Shown piece by piece: positions 5,579 through 30,873 of a DNA stretch of 51,520 bases. The stretch is from Bacteroidota bacterium (GTDB lineage: Bacteria; Bacteroidota; Bacteroidia; Chitinophagales; Chitinophagaceae), in assembly GCA_024640225.1 (NCBI GenBank), contig JAHEFK010000009.1:1-51520 (forward strand), read 5' to 3'. The notes under the pieces were generated by a model. It saw nothing but the letters and a program-made list of their open reading frames with translations. It was not told the DNA's origin and did no database searches. Within the stretch, counting starts at the first letter, position 1; every line of letters starts with the position of its first letter. The position numbers and the translations under genes are program-made.

Positions 5579-6238
5579 TTAATTTTTAGATTCTTCAATG
5601 ATTTGTAGGCTAGCAGAACAGCCAATTCTATTGGCGCCTGCTGCAATCAATGCTTTGGCAAAGGCATAGTTGCGAATGCCACCAGATGCTTTTATTTGTA
5701 TGGATGCAGGGAGGCAGCTTTTTATGGTTATAATATCTTCGATGCTTGCGCCTTTAGATGCATATCCCGTTGAGGTTTTTATAAAATCAACATGTAAGTC
5801 GGCATATATTTTACAGCATGCAATGATCTCCTCATTAGTTAATTCACCGCTTTCGATAATGATTTTAACGATGCATTCATGTTGGTGTGCTAACTCAATG
5901 ATAGCTTGCGCCTCATCTCTAAGGAAGTCCCATTGCTTATTTTTAACGGCACAAATATTGTGCACCACATCTAGTTCTTTGGCTCCATGCGCAATGGCTT
6001 CTTGTACTTCAATTAATTTTGAAGCAGTGCTATTATATCCGAATGGGAATCCAATAACAGTAGCAATGACAACATTAGAATTCGCTAAACTTTCTTTTGC
6101 TAGTGCTATATAATTGCCACTAACGCATATTGCTTTTATATGATTTTGCATCGCTTCCTTGCATAGCTGGATAATGTCTTCCGACTTTGCTGTTGGTTTC
6201 AACAGGGTATGATCTATGTAGGAAGCGATGGGTAGCAT
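5579..6238 (-). CDS. deoC: deoxyribose-phosphate aldolase
   Basis: A class I aldolase of 219 residues that splits 2-deoxyribose 5-phosphate into glyceraldehyde 3-phosphate and acetaldehyde in deoxynucleoside catabolism. The Schiff-base lysine is Lys154 in DFIKTSTGY, the second active-site lysine is Lys183 in IKASGG, and the activating Asp is Asp90 in KELDVV. The N-terminal IDHTLLKP signature is intact. Its ATG shares one base with the icd stop (TAATG), so translation is probably coupled. The pairing with isocitrate dehydrogenase is not a pathway pairing. Confidence 0.95.
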   Translation of the reverse strand: MLPIASYIDHTLLKPTAKSEDIIQLCKEAMQNHIKAICVSGNYIALAKESLANSNVVIATVIGFPFGYNSTASKLIEVQEAIAHGAKELDVVHNICAVKNKQWDFLRDEAQAIIELAHQHECIVKIIIESGELTNEEIIACCKIYADLHVDFIKTSTGYASKGASIEDIITIKSCLPASIQIKASGGIRNYAFAKALIAAGANRIGCSASLQIIEESKN

Positions 6239-7503
6239 TATAAGTTCTTTATTAGTTCTTCTGCAAATTCACTTGTTTTTAAAAGTGTAGCGTCATGCAT
6301 AAGATTATAAAAATCTATAGTTACACGCTTTCTTTTAATAGTAGTTTTCAAGCTTTCTACGATGGCGTCTGCTGCTTCGTTCCAGCCCATGTATTCCAAC
6401 ATCATTACGCCACTTAATAATAAGGAAGAAGGATTCATGGTGTTGGTATTTGCAAATCGAGGCGCGGTACCATGAGTCGCTTCAAATACCGCATGGCCTG
6501 TTGTGTAATTGATATTGCCACCCGGTGCAATACCAATGCCGCCAACTGCAGCTGCGAGTGCATCGGAAATATAGTCACCATTCAAATTCAATGTAGCGAT
6601 TACACTAAAATCTTTTGGTGCTAATAAAATTTGTTGTAAGAAATTATCGGCAATACAATCATTGATAATGATTTTACCTTCTACGCTTGCTTTCTTAAGC
6701 GCAATATTTGCAGCTTCTTCATTCTGTGCAGCTTTTATTGCTTCCCATTCCATCCAAGTAAATACTTGTTCGCCAAACGCTTCTTTAGCAATTTCATAGC
6801 CCCAATTTTTAAATCCACCTTCTGTGAATTTCATGATATTACCTTTATGTACCAATGTTACACTAGGTTTCTTTTGTTCTATAGCATATTGAATTGCTGC
6901 TTTTATCAATCGTTGAGAACCTTCTTTAGAAACGGGCTTGATGCCTAGTGCCGTACTTTCTGGGAATCGAATTTGCTTGTCAACACCTAATTCTGTTTTG
7001 AGGAAGTGCATTAGTTTTTGTACTTCTTCACTGCCCATTTTAAATTCAATACCGGCATAGATATCTTCCGTGTTTTCTCTAAAGATAGTCATGTTTACAT
7101 CTTCTGGATGATGCACTGGAGAAGGAACTCCTTTAAACCAATTTACTGGTCTTAAGCAAACATATAAATCTAATTCTTGTCTCAACGCAACATTTAAAGA
7201 GCGAATACCACCACCAACTGGCGTTGTTAGGGGACCTTTAATAGAGATTAAATATTCTTTTGCTATATCAAGCGTAGCAGCAGGAAGCCACTCTCCTGTT
7301 TGGTTAAAAGCTTTTTCGCCTGCCAACATTTCTTTCCATTCTATTTTGCGCTCGCCTTTATATAATTTTTCAACTGCCGCATCTAGTACTTTTCTACTGG
7401 CACTCCACACGTCTGGACCAATGCCATCACCTTCAATAAACGGAATTATGGGCTGATTGGGAACTTGTAATTTTCCATTAGCCCCCATGGTAATTTTATT
7501 CAT
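6238..7503 (-). CDS. icd: isocitrate dehydrogenase, E. coli Icd type
   Basis: TCA-cycle decarboxylating isocitrate dehydrogenase, 421 residues, collinear with E. coli Icd. The substrate loop carries [13 protein letters not shown] with the phosphorylatable-type Ser102, and [11 protein letters not shown] and [13 protein letters not shown] are conserved. The C-terminal cofactor region is unusual: compared with E. coli Icd the positions equivalent to Lys344, Tyr345, Val351, Tyr391 and Arg395 are Arg349, Phe350, Met356, Ile396 and Asn400, so strict NADP use should not be assumed. It is the first gene of icd-deoC-M20 and has its own -7 box at 7529-7536. Confidence 0.94.
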
Positions 7504-24835: not shown

Positions 24836-27800
24836 ATGAAAAGAATTTTATTCTCTTTTATTATCCTTTGCTTTGCAATAAATCCATCTTTTGCTCAGTA
24901 TTGTATTCCTTCCTATACAGCAGGTAGCTGTGGAAGCTCTACCAATACAGGTGTTGCGGATTATATCGATGGCGTTGTAACAACTGGAGGAACCGTTAAT
25001 ATCAACAATACCGGTACCGCTTGTTGTGGTTTAGCAAATAACTACATTTATTACTCCACCATGGGGCATACAGGAGTTCAAAATACAGTAGTAGGTTATA
25101 CCTTGTACAATACGCCTTATTGGTCTGAGTATCAATATATTTGGGTAGATTGGAATCAAGATGGTGACTTTTTAGATCCAGGGGAAGATGTTAGAAATCC
25201 TACCGTGTCTACTCCTTCAGGAGGTAGTGTTACGGGTACTTTCACCATTCCATTAACAGCTACTCCAGGCACTACCCGCATGAGAGTTAGAAATATTTAT
25301 GCAACAGTAGGTGGTAATCCTTGCACCACTTATACTTTTGGAGAGTGTGAAGATTATAACTTTACGGTTGTTGCTGCAATTCCTTGTTCGGGTATTCCAA
25401 CTGCCGGAACTGCCAATTCCACTTCACCTTCAGTTTGTCCTACAGCTACGTTCACTTTATCACTTACAGGTTCTACTCTTGCATCTGGTATTACCTATCA
25501 ATGGCAATATTCTGCAGCAGGCGCAAATACTTGGTTTAATTTGACAAATGGTGTTATTAGCAATGCACAATTTACCAATGCAACTGTTGCTGGGGCAACT
25601 GCTCTTTCATGCACTATAACGGGTCAAGTTGCAGCAACAGATTATCGATGTGTGGTTACATGTGCTAACTCATCTAGCACCGCTCCTTCTACCGTTGTTG
25701 CGGTAGCATCCAGTTCTTTCTTAAATTGTTATTGTAATTCGACTTCGACTTCTACGCTTTATCAAGACATTACCAATTTCACCTTATCAACGATAAATAA
25801 TAATACTTCTTGTAATACTATAGCACCTGGTCTAAATAGTAATGCAGGAATGTACTCTAACTTTATTTCAAGTGTAGCTGCTGCAAATGTTACGCAGACC
25901 TATTCCTATCCTTTGTCAATAACGATTTCTAATTGTTATACATTGACGAATGTGAACATCACTAAAGTTTACATAGATTACAATCATAATGGCACATTAA
26001 CGGATCCGGGTGAAGAAGTATATGTTTCTCCAACTACTTATTTAGGAGGTCATACCGAAACAGGTAGCATAACAATACCTGCAGCTGCGTTAACCGGAAA
26101 TACTTTAATGCGTGTTGTTAATACCTCTACAAGTAATTTTGCTGCGGTTACGCCTTGCGGCACCTATACGTATGGTGAAACAGAAGATTATGTAATTAAT
26201 ATTAGTGCACCCGTGCCTTGTACAGGAGCGCCAACTCCTGCTGTCATTGCTGGTCCAGCTAGCGCTTGCACAGGTGCTGCATTTACTTTGTCATCAACAG
26301 GTGCATCAACTGCCTTTGGCGTTTCGCATCAATGGCAATCTTCACCAAACTGTACAACAGGACCATGGACAAATATTACGGGTGCTACCAATACTACATT
26401 AGTAGTTGCTGCGGGTATTACAACAGCTACCTGTTACCGTTTAGTTTCTACTTGTAGTTATTCTAATTTATCATCTAATTCCAACACGGTTTCAGTATCA
26501 CTTACTCCACCTACATCTTGTTTTTGTGTGCCAACGTACGCAGTTGGTGGCGGCGGTGATATTATTGCAAATGTGGCTATTGGAACCTGGAATAATAATA
26601 CTACGTCTAATGGAAATCCATCTCCGTATTATGTAAATTATGTTCCTCAACAACCAACTCCGATTGCTATTCCAAATGTGGCAGCATCTACAACTTTCAA
26701 TCTAGTTATTAGCTTTGGTTCTGATGTTAATCAATTCTCAGGAGCGTGGGTAGATTGGAATCATGATGGTCTTTTTGCTACTACTGAATATTTTACAACC
26801 GGTACTAATGCAGGCGCTTATGGTTCTGTAACAATTCCGATCCCTGTTCCTACAACTGCATTGCCAGGAAATACTCGATTGAGAATTAGAGGTGGAGATG
26901 ATCAACCTATGACTGCTGCGCAAGCTTGTGGACCGAGCAATTCTATGTTTGGTGAAGCAGAAGATTATTTTATTAATGTGGTTCCGCCACCACCCGTGCC
27001 AACCATTACAGGTAATAGTAATATTTGTCAAGGTAGTTCTTTAATACTTACAGCAAGTTCATCTGTTGCAGGTGCAGCATTCGCATGGACAGGTCCAAAT
27101 GGATTTACGGCTACAACAGCAGCAATTACAATTCCTAATTTTCAAACGGTAAATGCGGGTGTTTATACCGTAACTGTTACGGTTGCTGGATTGTCAAATT
27201 CGAATTCCGTTTCAGTTGCTTGTTTGCCTATTCCAATCAACACCATTACAGCATCAGGTCCTTTAACCTTTTGTCAAGGTAATTTTATTTCACTTTCTGT
27301 TCCTGCTTCAACTGGAGCATCTTACACATGGGTTCAAAATGGTTCTCCAATTGTTGGACTTAACTCAAATATTTTAAATGTAGCTACATCTGGCACCTAT
27401 AATGTTGATATTACGGGTTCTAATGGTTGTACTATTTCATCTGTTATTTCAACGGTAGTTGTAAATCCACTTCCTAATGCAGTTTTAACGCCTGCTGGAC
27501 CAACATCTGTATGTAAACCACTAACTGTTCCTATGTCTGTTTCAACAGGATCTGGATACGCTTATGTATGGAAAAAGAATGGTGTGAATATTACCGGTGC
27601 TACGTCGGCTACATATAATGCAGCACAATCTGCTACTTATTCCGTTGTGGTAACAGATGTAAATGGATGTACTGCTACTTCCAATAATAGTGTTGTGAAT
27701 ATAGATACTACATTAACGGGTATTACCTTGTCTGGACCAACATCATTCTGTACTGGTTTTGTAACTATGCAGGCTACAACAAATCCTAATTATACTTATC

Positions 27801-29872
27801 AATGGATTAATAATGGATCTATAGTTGCTGGTCAAACAAGTTCTTCTTATACAGTAGGTAATGCGGTATTGTCTGCCGTTAATATTTCAAATGTTTATGT
27901 AAAAGTTACTAATACGCTTACCGGATGTGTAGATTCCTCTGTAAATACAGTGGTTACCGTAGGGGTGGCACCTCCAGCTTCTATAAGTCAACCCGATACA
28001 GTTAATGCTTGCGCAGGTATTCCTTATACATTAAATGCCAACGCTGGTCCAGGATTAACTTATGAGTGGTATTTAAATGGAACTTTAATTCCAGGTGCTA
28101 CTTCGGCAAATTATATTCCTACTGCCACAGGTTCTTATCAAGTTAGAGTATATTCAAGTCCTTCTTGTTATGGCCTCTCTAATAGTGTGTATTTTATTAT
28201 AAACGCGTTGCCTCCAGCAACGATTACTTCTACTAGTGGTAGCTTTGCTGTTTGTCAATTAGATACCCTAACAATGAATGCTAATACGGGTTTAGGTTAT
28301 ACTTATCAATGGAAGATAAACGGATCGGCAATCGCAGGTGCTAGTGCGGCTACCTTTAAAACAGGCAGTGCAGGTAACTATTCGGTGATTGTTACGAGTA
28401 TCTATGGTTGTCCAAAAGAATCTAATCCAGTTGCTGTTATAGTAAATCCGTTGCCAACGGCATCGGTTACGCCTACAGCTGCGCAAAATTTATGTACAGG
28501 TACTTCCGGTACTTTATATGCTAATACGGGTGCTAATTTATCTTATCAATGGAAATTGAATAATGCAAATTTAGTAGGTCAAACAAATGCAACGATTACT
28601 TCCAACTTAGGAGGTAACTATACCGTTCAAGTTACCAATACGATAACAGGTTGTAATAATACATCTACGCCACCGGTGGCATTTATATTAAAACCAATTC
28701 CGGTAGCAGTAGCAACACCATTAACTGGTACCTCTTTCTGTCAAGGTAATAGCACCGTAATTTCTGCAACTTCTACTTTCGGAAATACCTATCAGTGGTA
28801 TATGAATGGTAATATTATTCCAGGTGCTACAGCGGCTACTTATTCCGCGTCTCAAGCAGGTTCTTATACCGTGCTTATTCAACGTGATGGCTGTACGAAT
28901 ACATCCAATGCAATTGTTACTTCTGTTTTACCTTATATTAATCCAGTAGCAGTTGCAATAGGCAATACGCAAATTTGTAATGGGGATTCTGTGACCCTTT
29001 ATACCCAAGCGGGAACCAACTATAGCTATCAATGGTATAGAAATGGAACAATAATAGCAGGTGCAACAAATGCTGTTTACAAAGCAGCATTGCCTGGTGC
29101 ATACGCTGTTGCTGTGTCATATAACGGGTTGTGTAGTCAAACTTCAAATGCTATTCAAATAAATGTTGCTCCTGCTATCAATGCAAATTTAGCAAGTCCT
29201 TATACCGGGCCAATTGTTAGATTCTGTCCAAACACAATCAATAAATTGGAAGTTCAAGTACAGGCGCCTAATATGACGTATCAATGGTATTATAATGGCT
29301 ATACGTTGCCTGGTGCTATAGGGCCAAGCTTGTATATCACTCAAGCAGGTTCTTACTACGTTAGATTAACTAATAATATAGGTTGCTCTGCAAATTCAAT
29401 AATTGCAAATGTCAGCTACTTTGTTCCTGCAAATCCAATAATTACTCAAAATGGATTGACATTAGGTACAAGCACATATGCTACGTATCAATGGTACTTA
29501 AATGGGGTAGCTATACCTGGTGCAACAACGCAATTTATTTCGATTAATGAAGATGGAGATTACCAAGTAGAAGTTAAAGATGCTAATGGTTGCTATGTTA
29601 AATCAGTTCCGTTTAAAACACCTGCCTTAAGTGTTGGTGCTGTTTACAGTTCTGTTTTAATTAATGTATATCCAAATCCTTTTAATGAGGAAATCAAAAT
29701 TGAAGCTTCTAAGAAAGTGCAAGTTTCAATTGTAGATATCACAGGAAAAGTAGTAGTGCCAATAACTTCAGAAACTACTATTGTTACCTCGCAATTAGCT
29801 TCTGGTCTATACTTTATGAGGATTTATACAGAAGATGGAAGTTTGATTGAAACAAGAAAATTAAATAAATAA
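24836..29872 (+). CDS. giant secreted GEVED/Ig-like repeat protein with T9SS type A sorting domain
   Basis: A 1678-residue surface or secreted protein. Residues 1-20 form a signal peptide (SFAQ). Three GEVED domains follow, with the motifs GECEDY (about 172), GETEDY (about 446) and GEAEDY (about 705), each preceded by an Asp/Asn-rich calcium-like loop (DWNQDGDF, DYNHNGTL, DWNHDGLF). About eleven Ig/PKD-like repeats run from about 722 to 1595. The last 75 residues are a T9SS type A sorting domain (NVYPNPFNEEI, ITGKVV, SGLYFMRIY). It is Thr/Ser/Asn-rich with regularly placed Cys pairs. Adhesion is likely, by analogy. A weak promoter (TTTG 24744-24747, TATCTTGA 24768-24775) and a 6-base hairpin (24787-24803) lie in front; a terminator follows. 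Confidence 0.9.
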   Translation: MKRILFSFIILCFAINPSFAQYCIPSYTAGSCGSSTNTGVADYIDGVVTTGGTVNINNTGTACCGLANNYIYYSTMGHTGVQNTVVGYTLYNTPYWSEYQYIWVDWNQDGDFLDPGEDVRNPTVSTPSGGSVTGTFTIPLTATPGTTRMRVRNIYATVGGNPCTTYTFGECEDYNFTVVAAIPCSGIPTAGTANSTSPSVCPTATFTLSLTGSTLASGITYQWQYSAAGANTWFNLTNGVISNAQFTNATVAGATALSCTITGQVAATDYRCVVTCANSSSTAPSTVVAVASSSFLNCYCNSTSTSTLYQDITNFTLSTINNNTSCNTIAPGLNSNAGMYSNFISSVAAANVTQTYSYPLSITISNCYTLTNVNITKVYIDYNHNGTLTDPGEEVYVSPTTYLGGHTETGSITIPAAALTGNTLMRVVNTSTSNFAAVTPCGTYTYGETEDYVINISAPVPCTGAPTPAVIAGPASACTGAAFTLSSTGASTAFGVSHQWQSSPNCTTGPWTNITGATNTTLVVAAGITTATCYRLVSTCSYSNLSSNSNTVSVSLTPPTSCFCVPTYAVGGGGDIIANVAIGTWNNNTTSNGNPSPYYVNYVPQQPTPIAIPNVAASTTFNLVISFGSDVNQFSGAWVDWNHDGLFATTEYFTTGTNAGAYGSVTIPIPVPTTALPGNTRLRIRGGDDQPMTAAQACGPSNSMFGEAEDYFINVVPPPPVPTITGNSNICQGSSLILTASSSVAGAAFAWTGPNGFTATTAAITIPNFQTVNAGVYTVTVTVAGLSNSNSVSVACLPIPINTITASGPLTFCQGNFISLSVPASTGASYTWVQNGSPIVGLNSNILNVATSGTYNVDITGSNGCTISSVISTVVVNPLPNAVLTPAGPTSVCKPLTVPMSVSTGSGYAYVWKKNGVNITGATSATYNAAQSATYSVVVTDVNGCTATSNNSVVNIDTTLTGITLSGPTSFCTGFVTMQATTNPNYTYQWINNGSIVAGQTSSSYTVGNAVLSAVNISNVYVKVTNTLTGCVDSSVNTVVTVGVAPPASISQPDTVNACAGIPYTLNANAGPGLTYEWYLNGTLIPGATSANYIPTATGSYQVRVYSSPSCYGLSNSVYFIINALPPATITSTSGSFAVCQLDTLTMNANTGLGYTYQWKINGSAIAGASAATFKTGSAGNYSVIVTSIYGCPKESNPVAVIVNPLPTASVTPTAAQNLCTGTSGTLYANTGANLSYQWKLNNANLVGQTNATITSNLGGNYTVQVTNTITGCNNTSTPPVAFILKPIPVAVATPLTGTSFCQGNSTVISATSTFGNTYQWYMNGNIIPGATAATYSASQAGSYTVLIQRDGCTNTSNAIVTSVLPYINPVAVAIGNTQICNGDSVTLYTQAGTNYSYQWYRNGTIIAGATNAVYKAALPGAYAVAVSYNGLCSQTSNAIQINVAPAINANLASPYTGPIVRFCPNTINKLEVQVQAPNMTYQWYYNGYTLPGAIGPSLYITQAGSYYVRLTNNIGCSANSIIANVSYFVPANPIITQNGLTLGTSTYATYQWYLNGVAIPGATTQFISINEDGDYQVEVKDANGCYVKSVPFKTPALSVGAVYSSVLINVYPNPFNEEIKIEASKKVQVSIVDITGKVVVPITSETTIVTSQLASGLYFMRIYTEDGSLIETRKLNK
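27000..29620 (+). repeat. array of about eleven Ig/PKD-like repeats within the GEVED protein
   Basis: Repeats of about 80-90 residues, each with an early Cys (CxGxxVxL), a central YxWxxNGxxIxGAT and a terminal GxYxVxVTxxxGC. The 9-mer TATCAATGG, coding for YQW, recurs at about 25497, 27797, 28305, 28543, 29027, 29279 and 29487, one of these lying before the array. Copies have diverged at DNA level, so the array is old rather than a fresh expansion. Confidence 0.8.
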
Positions 29873-29994: not shown

Positions 29995-30873
29995 ATGAAA
30001 AAAATAGCCCTTATATGTAGTCTGTCTGTAGTGAGTCTTAGTTCTTGTATTATAGTGCATGTGCCAGTAGCTATGCCGCACGCTGAAGACTCTTCTTTTA
30101 GTATGATCGACCCGCACGATACTTTAAAATCGCATGTCAATTGTTCGCATGGAGGATTTCATTTTGTTAGCGTTTTGCCATCGGGCCAATATGCGCGTAT
30201 AGCACCCAAAATGGGCTTTGGTTTTGATGTGGAAGGGTATTCTAAAAACCTAACGCCGAAGCATAAAATGGCTACTTATTTAGGTGGTGATTTAATGGTT
30301 GCTTGGAAAGATAAAACCGATAAAACATTCGTAGACGTAGTAGGCTATCCTATGAAAGGGCATACCTATTTAGAAAACACGTTAGTTGCTACACATTTTA
30401 ATGCCCGTTTTGAGCTCAATAAAAAGAAATTTAGACCTTATATCTTAGGTTCTTTGGGCTGGTTAGGTTTTAGTACTGATCAGATGTTGAATGTAAACAA
30501 TAGAACTAATTCTACCAATTCAATTATGATGGGTACCTTCAATAAGAGTGTTAATTTAGGTTTTAGATATTTCATTGAAAAACAGGTAGCATTAGATGTT
30601 AGAGTTGGATTTAATATGCCTACAAAAACAAGTTTGAGTGATATTCAAACAGCTATTTATGATTCAGTAAGTACTCAATACATTACACAAGACATTTCAA
30701 TGAATCCTTCCTTTTTTTCAATTAAAGTCGGCTTGTTATTTTGTTTTGGGAAAAGCAAGTCAACTTCTAATAATACGTATTATCATAGTTCTACTTATTA
30801 CCCATCTAATACTAACACGCCTTCATATAGTACTCCAAAAATAAGACCTGCAACACCAATAATGAGAAATTAA
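29995..30873 (+). CDS. putative outer-membrane beta-barrel-like lipoprotein
   Basis: A 292-residue protein without a recognised family. The N-terminus is a signal peptide with lipobox LSSC (Cys18). The body alternates hydrophobic and polar residues with recurring aromatic-Gly turns (PKMGFGFDVEGY, YLGGDLMVAW, LGSLGWLGF, VNLGFRYFI, DVRVGFNMP, IKVGLLFCFG), as in small outer-membrane barrels of the OmpA/OmpW-like type. The last 40 residues are a Ser/Thr/Tyr/Pro-rich tail. It may be a lipidated barrel or a lipoprotein with a barrel-like sandwich. It is monocistronic, flanked by terminators. Confidence 0.65.
   Translation: MKKIALICSLSVVSLSSCIIVHVPVAMPHAEDSSFSMIDPHDTLKSHVNCSHGGFHFVSVLPSGQYARIAPKMGFGFDVEGYSKNLTPKHKMATYLGGDLMVAWKDKTDKTFVDVVGYPMKGHTYLENTLVATHFNARFELNKKKFRPYILGSLGWLGFSTDQMLNVNNRTNSTNSIMMGTFNKSVNLGFRYFIEKQVALDVRVGFNMPTKTSLSDIQTAIYDSVSTQYITQDISMNPSFFSIKVGLLFCFGKSKSTSNNTYYHSSTYYPSNTNTPSYSTPKIRPATPIMRN

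Follow-up and report, generated by a model that had tools for sequence, protein, structure and literature searches.

Isocitrate dehydrogenase (IDH) is a textbook case of cofactor-specificity evolution. The locus described here, in a window of 51,520 nucleotides from a Bacteroidota bacterium (the whole stretch of DNA that was analysed), raises the question of which cofactor is used by an IDH in which most of the residues that hold NADP in Escherichia coli have been replaced. Residues are numbered as in E. coli unless the window enzyme is named, a prime marks the partner subunit, and the literature is cited by PMC number on the basis of the part of each article's text that was available.

The enzyme and its pocket

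The gene and the codons of interest are as follows.

6238 to 7503, minus strand: icd, type I isocitrate dehydrogenase, 421 aa, TAA stop (single open reading frame)
6619 to 6621, minus strand: Ala295 codon, equivalent to E. coli Arg292', the pocket residue from the partner subunit (alignment)
6457 to 6459, minus strand: Arg349 codon, equivalent to E. coli Lys344 (alignment)
6454 to 6456, minus strand: Phe350 codon, equivalent to E. coli Tyr345 (alignment)
6445 to 6447, minus strand: Thr353 codon, equivalent to E. coli Gln348, diagnostic of the clade (clade alignment)
6439 to 6441, minus strand: Thr355 codon, equivalent to E. coli Lys350, charge lost, diagnostic of the clade (clade alignment)
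6436 to 6438, minus strand: Met356 codon, equivalent to E. coli Val351 (alignment)
6316 to 6318, minus strand: Ile396 codon, equivalent to E. coli Tyr391 (alignment)
6307 to 6309, minus strand: Tyr399 codon, equivalent to E. coli Glu394, aromatic (Tyr, His or Phe) in 111/111 clade members (clade alignment)
6304 to 6306, minus strand: Asn400 codon, equivalent to E. coli Arg395 (alignment)

The 421-residue product scores above the curated cut-offs of the NCBIfam models TIGR00183 (639 against 567 bits) and PRK07006 (682 against 490 bits). NCBIfam calls these enzymes NADP-dependent, a family name that is no test of cofactor specificity, and metabolic models may inherit the label, which may be wrong. 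The closest solved structures are those of the Bacillus subtilis enzyme (1hqs), which aligns end to end (69% identity, 417 columns, E 7.6e-196), of the Acidithiobacillus thiooxidans enzyme (2d4v) and of E. coli IDH (62% identity over 401 columns). The eleven residues which we take to form the isocitrate, metal and catalytic sites (S113, N115, R119, R129, R153, Y160, K230, N232, D283, D307 and D311) are all kept in the window enzyme and across the clade (96 loci examined, with gaps at three of these sites in one partial row). To judge from its sequence, the protein is a type I enzyme with normal isocitrate chemistry. In its genome (1.85 Mb, 96.5% complete) a search for relatives of the type I enzyme matched only the enzyme itself.

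The genes icd and deoC overlap, the stop codon of the first running into the start codon of the second (TAATG at 6240-6236). Downstream and on the same strand as the IDH gene, deoC (5579-6238 in the window) is found in 27 of 80 related loci with flanks of at most 3 kb, in eight of them 3 bases past the end of the IDH match; the pair is conserved, and the metabolic reason for it is not obvious. Elsewhere in the window, a large GEVED/Por-secretion-tail protein (24836-29872) is followed downstream by an open frame of 292 aa with no Pfam match (29995-30873), and an Rfam scan of the window gave zero matches above the gathering scores.

Five pocket substitutions had been proposed by a sequence-only reading, and alignment confirmed them: R349, F350, M356, I396 and N400 stand opposite E. 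coli K344, Y345, V351, Y391 and R395, in a C-terminal stretch that is ungapped. The loss of NADP contacts is in fact larger than that reading had noted, as Ala295 in place of Arg292' had been overlooked and positions 348, 350 and 394 are changed too. Compared with the E. coli and B. subtilis enzymes, the window IDH is alike in length, in its catalytic and metal residues and in most cofactor contacts, whereas R292', K344, Y345, V351, Y391 and R395 are all changed, 344 conservatively.

The E. coli enzyme bonds the 2'-phosphate through the hydroxyl groups of Tyr345 and Tyr391 and through Arg395, the closed form of ApIDH through the equivalents of Tyr345, Gln288', Arg292' and Lys344 (PMC6313988); R292 from the partner subunit is among the listed NADP contacts (PMC8623467) and is Arg296' in ApIDH (PMC6313988). 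Of these ligands, the variant enzyme, as we call the form with the pocket of the window IDH, retains Gln288 and the charge at 344, as Arg or Lys. Complete conservation in prokaryotic NADP-IDHs is ascribed to Lys344, Tyr345 and Arg395 (PMC6313988); at these three positions, and at Arg292' and Tyr391 of the E. coli enzyme, the window IDH has Arg, Phe, Asn, Ala and Ile. The triplet Asp344-Ile345-Ala351 is common to known NAD-IDHs (PMC3590139, PMC5397045), and here the window enzyme has Arg, Phe and Met. The alignment with characterised NAD and NADP enzymes, which had been suggested as a check, thus places it with neither residue set, and the variant, being without both, fits neither rule. The NAD enzyme of A. 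thiooxidans is also type I and also without Tyr391 and Arg395, but it has Asp344-Ile345-Ala351 and keeps Arg292 where the window IDH has Arg-Phe-Met and Ala.

Conservation and origin of the altered pocket

An alignment was made of 281 unique full-length type I sequences, of which 111 are variant, 167 are canonical Bacteroidota sequences and three are of another kind; they came from the best 80 of 582 relatives from a contig scan, from whole-genome searches and from fetched genes. Among the 111 variant sequences position 292 is Ala (97), Ser (8) or Asn (6), 344 is Arg (93), Lys (16) or Gln (2), and 345 and 351 are Phe and Met throughout; 391 is Ile (95) or Val (16), 394 is Tyr (101), His (7) or Phe (3), and 395 is Asn (84), Lys (23) or Gln (4). 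The counts in the canonical set (n = 167) are R292 166, K344 166, Y345 166, V351 164, Y391 164 and R395 166. All 111 variant members have lost R292, Y345, V351, Y391 and R395 together, and the changes at 292, 391 and 395 accompany F345/M351 without exception in these sequences, which were sorted on 345 and 351. Drift or a sequence error in one genome has a negligible chance of being the explanation, as a set shared by 111 of 111 unique full-length sequences, with F345 and M351 invariant, is neither chance nor sequencing error.

The eight columns out of 389 that diverge most between the variant and canonical sets are 391, 351, 292, 350, 348, 395, 345 and 394. All eight fall in the NADP-binding loop, in the 390-397 helix or at 292, which are described as NADP-binding (PMC8623467). 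The two sets were sorted by their letters at 344, 345 and 351, so that these columns are circular in the ranking; with 345 and 351 left out, three of the four remaining named contacts are among the eight diagnostic columns of 387 (P 2e-5). Position 344 ranks only 13th, because the basic charge is retained. Eleven other cofactor contacts (K100, L103, T105, N232, Q287, Q288, E336, H339, G340, A342 and N352) are invariant in 111/111 variant members, and since these and the substrate, metal and catalytic sites are intact, it is largely the part of the pocket around the adenosine-2'-phosphate that has changed.

The distribution of the variant was followed in three draws of genomes. In the order draw a type I enzyme was found in 126 of 198 genomes, with sites read in 125 of the 126, some of them partial (the contig of G162 is without the C-terminal part). 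All 14 of the 126 that belong to the window's family (f1, presumably Chitinophagaceae) carry the variant; of the 112 genomes from other families, 111 are readable at 344-351, and 110 of these have Lys-Tyr-Val and one Lys-Phe-Val. This last sequence (L155, genome G085) lies outside the clade and has an intermediate-looking pocket, with Cys292, Lys344, Phe345, Val351, Phe391 and Arg395. The family draw yielded the full variant enzyme in 36 of 147 genomes (36/36 read) and fragments in two further genomes, so that the variant is absent from some family members. The phylum draw (392 genomes) gave 145 with a match, and 70 of these had their sites read; in this subset of 70 the variant occurs outside f1 in only two genomes, both from one genus of family f22 (L251, L254).

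Two observations concern individual records. In a relative of 2.1 Mb (G232:C10) the variant IDH finds its closest counterpart in L249, which covers only residues 287-421 of the query, contains an in-frame TAA and has altered invariant residues (DPAPHF for GTAPRF); the gene looks decayed. The labels of L002, L020 and L041 look wrong: a record with 99% identity is named Chitinophaga pinensis, and the others are in Azovibrio and Phycisphaerales MAGs.

The tree was computed from 67 sequences (24 variant and 37 canonical rows among them) with the ten pocket columns removed and E. coli as outgroup; it includes L254 and omits L109, L305, L306, L309, the query itself (L001) and L002-L081. A preliminary tree of 103 rows had contained L109, a protein of ~490 aa with a branch length of 10, and other long rows. 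Variant sequences are monophyletic (ultrafast bootstrap 100, SH-aLRT 96, 100% of 200 bootstrap trees), those of f22 branch first within the clade, and the clade is nested among canonical Lys-Tyr-Val sequences. A monophyletic clade among canonical NADP-type enzymes means that the pocket change is derived, and the simplest reading of the tree is one change from an NADP-type ancestor, retained since. A second altered pocket was seen in the three aligned sequences of another kind (L268 in G630, L277 in G627 and L278 in G532), with Asn344-Ile345-Val351, Met or Ile for R292, Pro, His or Asn at 391 and Arg395 kept; they are monophyletic (100/99), and their placement next to the NAD enzyme of A. thiooxidans is less well supported (91/96).

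We tentatively propose, at somewhat less than even odds, that a canonical NADP-specific IDH lost its NADP specificity once, in a lineage now found in what appears to be part of Chitinophagaceae, by about nine coordinated pocket changes (292, 344, 345, 348, 350, 351, 391, 394 and 395) and without the Asp344 route. If true, type I IDHs would recognise their nucleotide in three ways of separate evolutionary origin, the third running opposite to the classic direction from NAD to NADP. The kind of enzyme is known; what appears to be new, from the sequences compared here, is the conserved, derived and unusual cofactor pocket. This natural and conserved pocket, from an NADP-type ancestor, departs from the published NADP rule and yet does not follow the NAD one, which makes it a case for judging if three residues (344/345/351) are too narrow a rule for prediction.

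Cofactor preference of the variant

The reading that we prefer, with a probability of roughly 0.5, is that NAD+ and NADP+ are both used, with a relaxed or dual specificity that is possibly tilted towards NAD. On the evidence of the alignment and the tree, the 2'-phosphate pocket was rebuilt once, in a gene clade of part of the presumed Chitinophagaceae and one other family, from Arg292'/Lys344/Tyr345/Val351/Tyr391/Arg395 to small/basic/Phe/Met/Ile or Val/Asn, Lys or Gln, with a new aromatic residue at 394. With most 2'-phosphate ligands gone, the basic residue at 344 kept and no repelling Asp, the window IDH would discriminate weakly, and NAD+ would be a physiological cofactor beside NADP+. 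The combination of a basic 344 and a hydrophobic, non-Tyr 345 is present as Arg349-Phe350 and has two characterised precedents only. The enzyme of Umbonibacter marinipuiceus (UmIDH; Arg345-Leu346-Val352 in its own numbering, Arg-Leu-Val) is dual, with a kcat/Km 2.3-fold higher for NADP+ (PMC10380307); compared at 344/345/351 only, it shares the Arg at 344 and a non-Tyr hydrophobic 345 and differs in having Leu and Val for Phe and Met. That of Methylobacillus flagellatus (MfIDH; Lys340-Ile341-Ala347, Lys-Ile-Ala) is dual as well, at 182 U/mg with NAD+ and 63 U/mg with NADP+ (PMC5397045); over the same three positions it shares a basic 344, a hydrophobic 345 and a non-Val 351, and differs in having Ile and Ala for Phe and Met. 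That both were measured as dual suggests a relaxed, dual specificity for the variant. In the available text of the open-licence literature, we found no kinetics for a Chitinophagaceae IDH or for this clade.

The sequence-only reading had taken the loss of Tyr391 and Arg395 as a sign of NAD or dual use. The sign holds in so far as most 2'-phosphate ligands are gone throughout the clade, and the change of the E. coli enzyme to NAD use, a seven-fold one, also hit 344, 345, 351, 391 and 395 (PMC6313988). Loss of Tyr391 by itself is a weak argument and was rejected as a cofactor sign, since Gln or Pro occupies this position in NADP enzymes of archaea (PMC6313988, PMC8623467). Of its two alternatives dual use appears the more plausible; plain NAD use fits poorly with a pocket that has no Asp344 and keeps the basic residue.

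This basic residue is also a point against the dual reading. A positive charge at Arg349 had been noted earlier, and a basic 344 in 109 of 111 clade members argues that the 2'-phosphate still matters. The enzyme might then be still NADP-specific, with other ligands holding the 2'-phosphate, for example Arg/Lys344, Tyr/His394, Asn/Lys/Gln395 and Arg386; we consider this unlikely, if a serious contender. The aromatic 394 in 111/111, Lys395 in 23/111 and Arg386 in 81/111 would suit it, and other ligand sets do exist, as the subfamily II NADP-IDH of yeast has Arg-His at the places of 344/345 (PMC6313988). Against it stand the loss of Arg292' and of two residues called completely conserved in prokaryotic NADP-IDHs, Tyr345 and Arg395, the incomplete conservation of Arg386 in the clade and the dual use of both precedents with a basic 344 and a hydrophobic 345.

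Gene content bears on the same choice. Of the 36 variant genomes 13 have glucose-6-phosphate dehydrogenase (G6PDH), which was found in 66 of the 95 family-draw genomes with class A, an IDH of ~490 aa that is taken up below (P 0.0007 by genome; 9/22 against 44/65 by genus, P 0.04, the only kinship check on the gene-presence counts), and in 28 of 112 canonical-IDH genomes. In this low frequency the variant genomes resemble NADP-IDH genomes, as if their IDH still made NADPH, which favours retained NADP specificity and counts against the dual reading. The same holds for G270, a variant genome of 98% completeness with the Lys395 form, in which G6PDH, the transhydrogenase subunit PntB and malic enzyme were searched for and none was found. 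PntB is present in 30/36 variant and 70/95 class A genomes, a difference that is not clear; six variant genomes are without both G6PDH and PntB, and a malic-enzyme domain is present in 20 of the 23 that lack G6PDH, five of those six among them. The window's genome has PntB and a malic-enzyme domain, while a search of it (96.5% complete) found neither G6PDH nor isocitrate lyase; the membrane transhydrogenase and the malic-enzyme-type protein are further possible sources of its NADPH.

Isocitrate lyase leans the other way. None of the 36 variant genomes has it above the cut-off (five have weak sub-cut-off matches in frames of ~300 aa), and the 14 variant genomes of the order draw are likewise without it; among the 112 canonical-IDH genomes of that draw 36 exceed the cut-off, or 42 if a longer sub-cut-off type is counted. 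As NADP-IDH has been tied to NADPH demand during growth on acetate (PMC3590139), its absence leans towards NAD. Within the family it was rejected as a proxy for NADP-IDH, since it is rare family-wide (4/95 class A genomes, 5/147 overall), and variant and non-variant genomes cannot be told apart by it. The gene co-occurrence is mixed, as dual use would give, and proves nothing.

Other isocitrate dehydrogenases of the family

Two classes of ~490-aa IDH were found in the family draw. Class A (like L098) is assigned in 95 of the 147 genomes, 80 of these assignments being made from the search row alone, and it is nearly exclusive with the variant (36 genomes); 14 genomes were sorted into neither group. 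All 15 class A enzymes read from these genomes, which are without the variant, have Asp344-Ile345. Among the matches listed (to about E 9e-20), a class A row occurs in one variant genome only (G254), the weakest class A row being at 1.6e-20. The near-exclusivity, together with the absence of isocitrate lyase above the cut-off, would suit an NAD-specific variant, that is, a reversal from an NADP-specific ancestor in the role that the Asp344 enzyme has in other genera of the family. We regard this as unlikely, given that the Asp344 of known NAD-IDHs (PMC3590139) is absent, that the basic 344 is conserved and the G6PDH complement weak, and that the near-exclusivity is qualified by the many search-row assignments and by further IDH matches at E 1e-15 in 14 of the 36 variant genomes. 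Five of those matches were read, one being class A (G254) and four class B. Class B is thus a second IDH in at least four of the 36 variant genomes (G016, G081, G279 and G283; two Asp-Ile, two Arg-Arg), which blurs the gene-presence counts given above for the preferred dual reading and its rivals alike. The view that the ~490-aa IDHs all have Asp344 and exclude the variant was dropped, as there are two classes and exclusivity is claimed for class A only.

Class A, the most frequent IDH of the family draw, has Asp344-Ile345 in 16/16 of the loci read (L095-L107, L330-L332). L098 is barely above the cut-off of NCBIfam PRK09222, a model named NADP-dependent, and the Thermus thermophilus structure 2d1c has Lys-Tyr at 344-345; from these residues, the class A enzymes probably use NAD in spite of their NADP label. 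Two class B proteins (L108, L109) exceed the cut-offs of both PRK09222 and TIGR02924. Among the class B loci (L108, L109 and L321-L329), the 11 read have Asp-Ile (5), Arg-Arg (4), Lys-Met (1) or Thr-Ile (1) at 344-345, and these flips look as if cofactor preference had switched naturally more than once.
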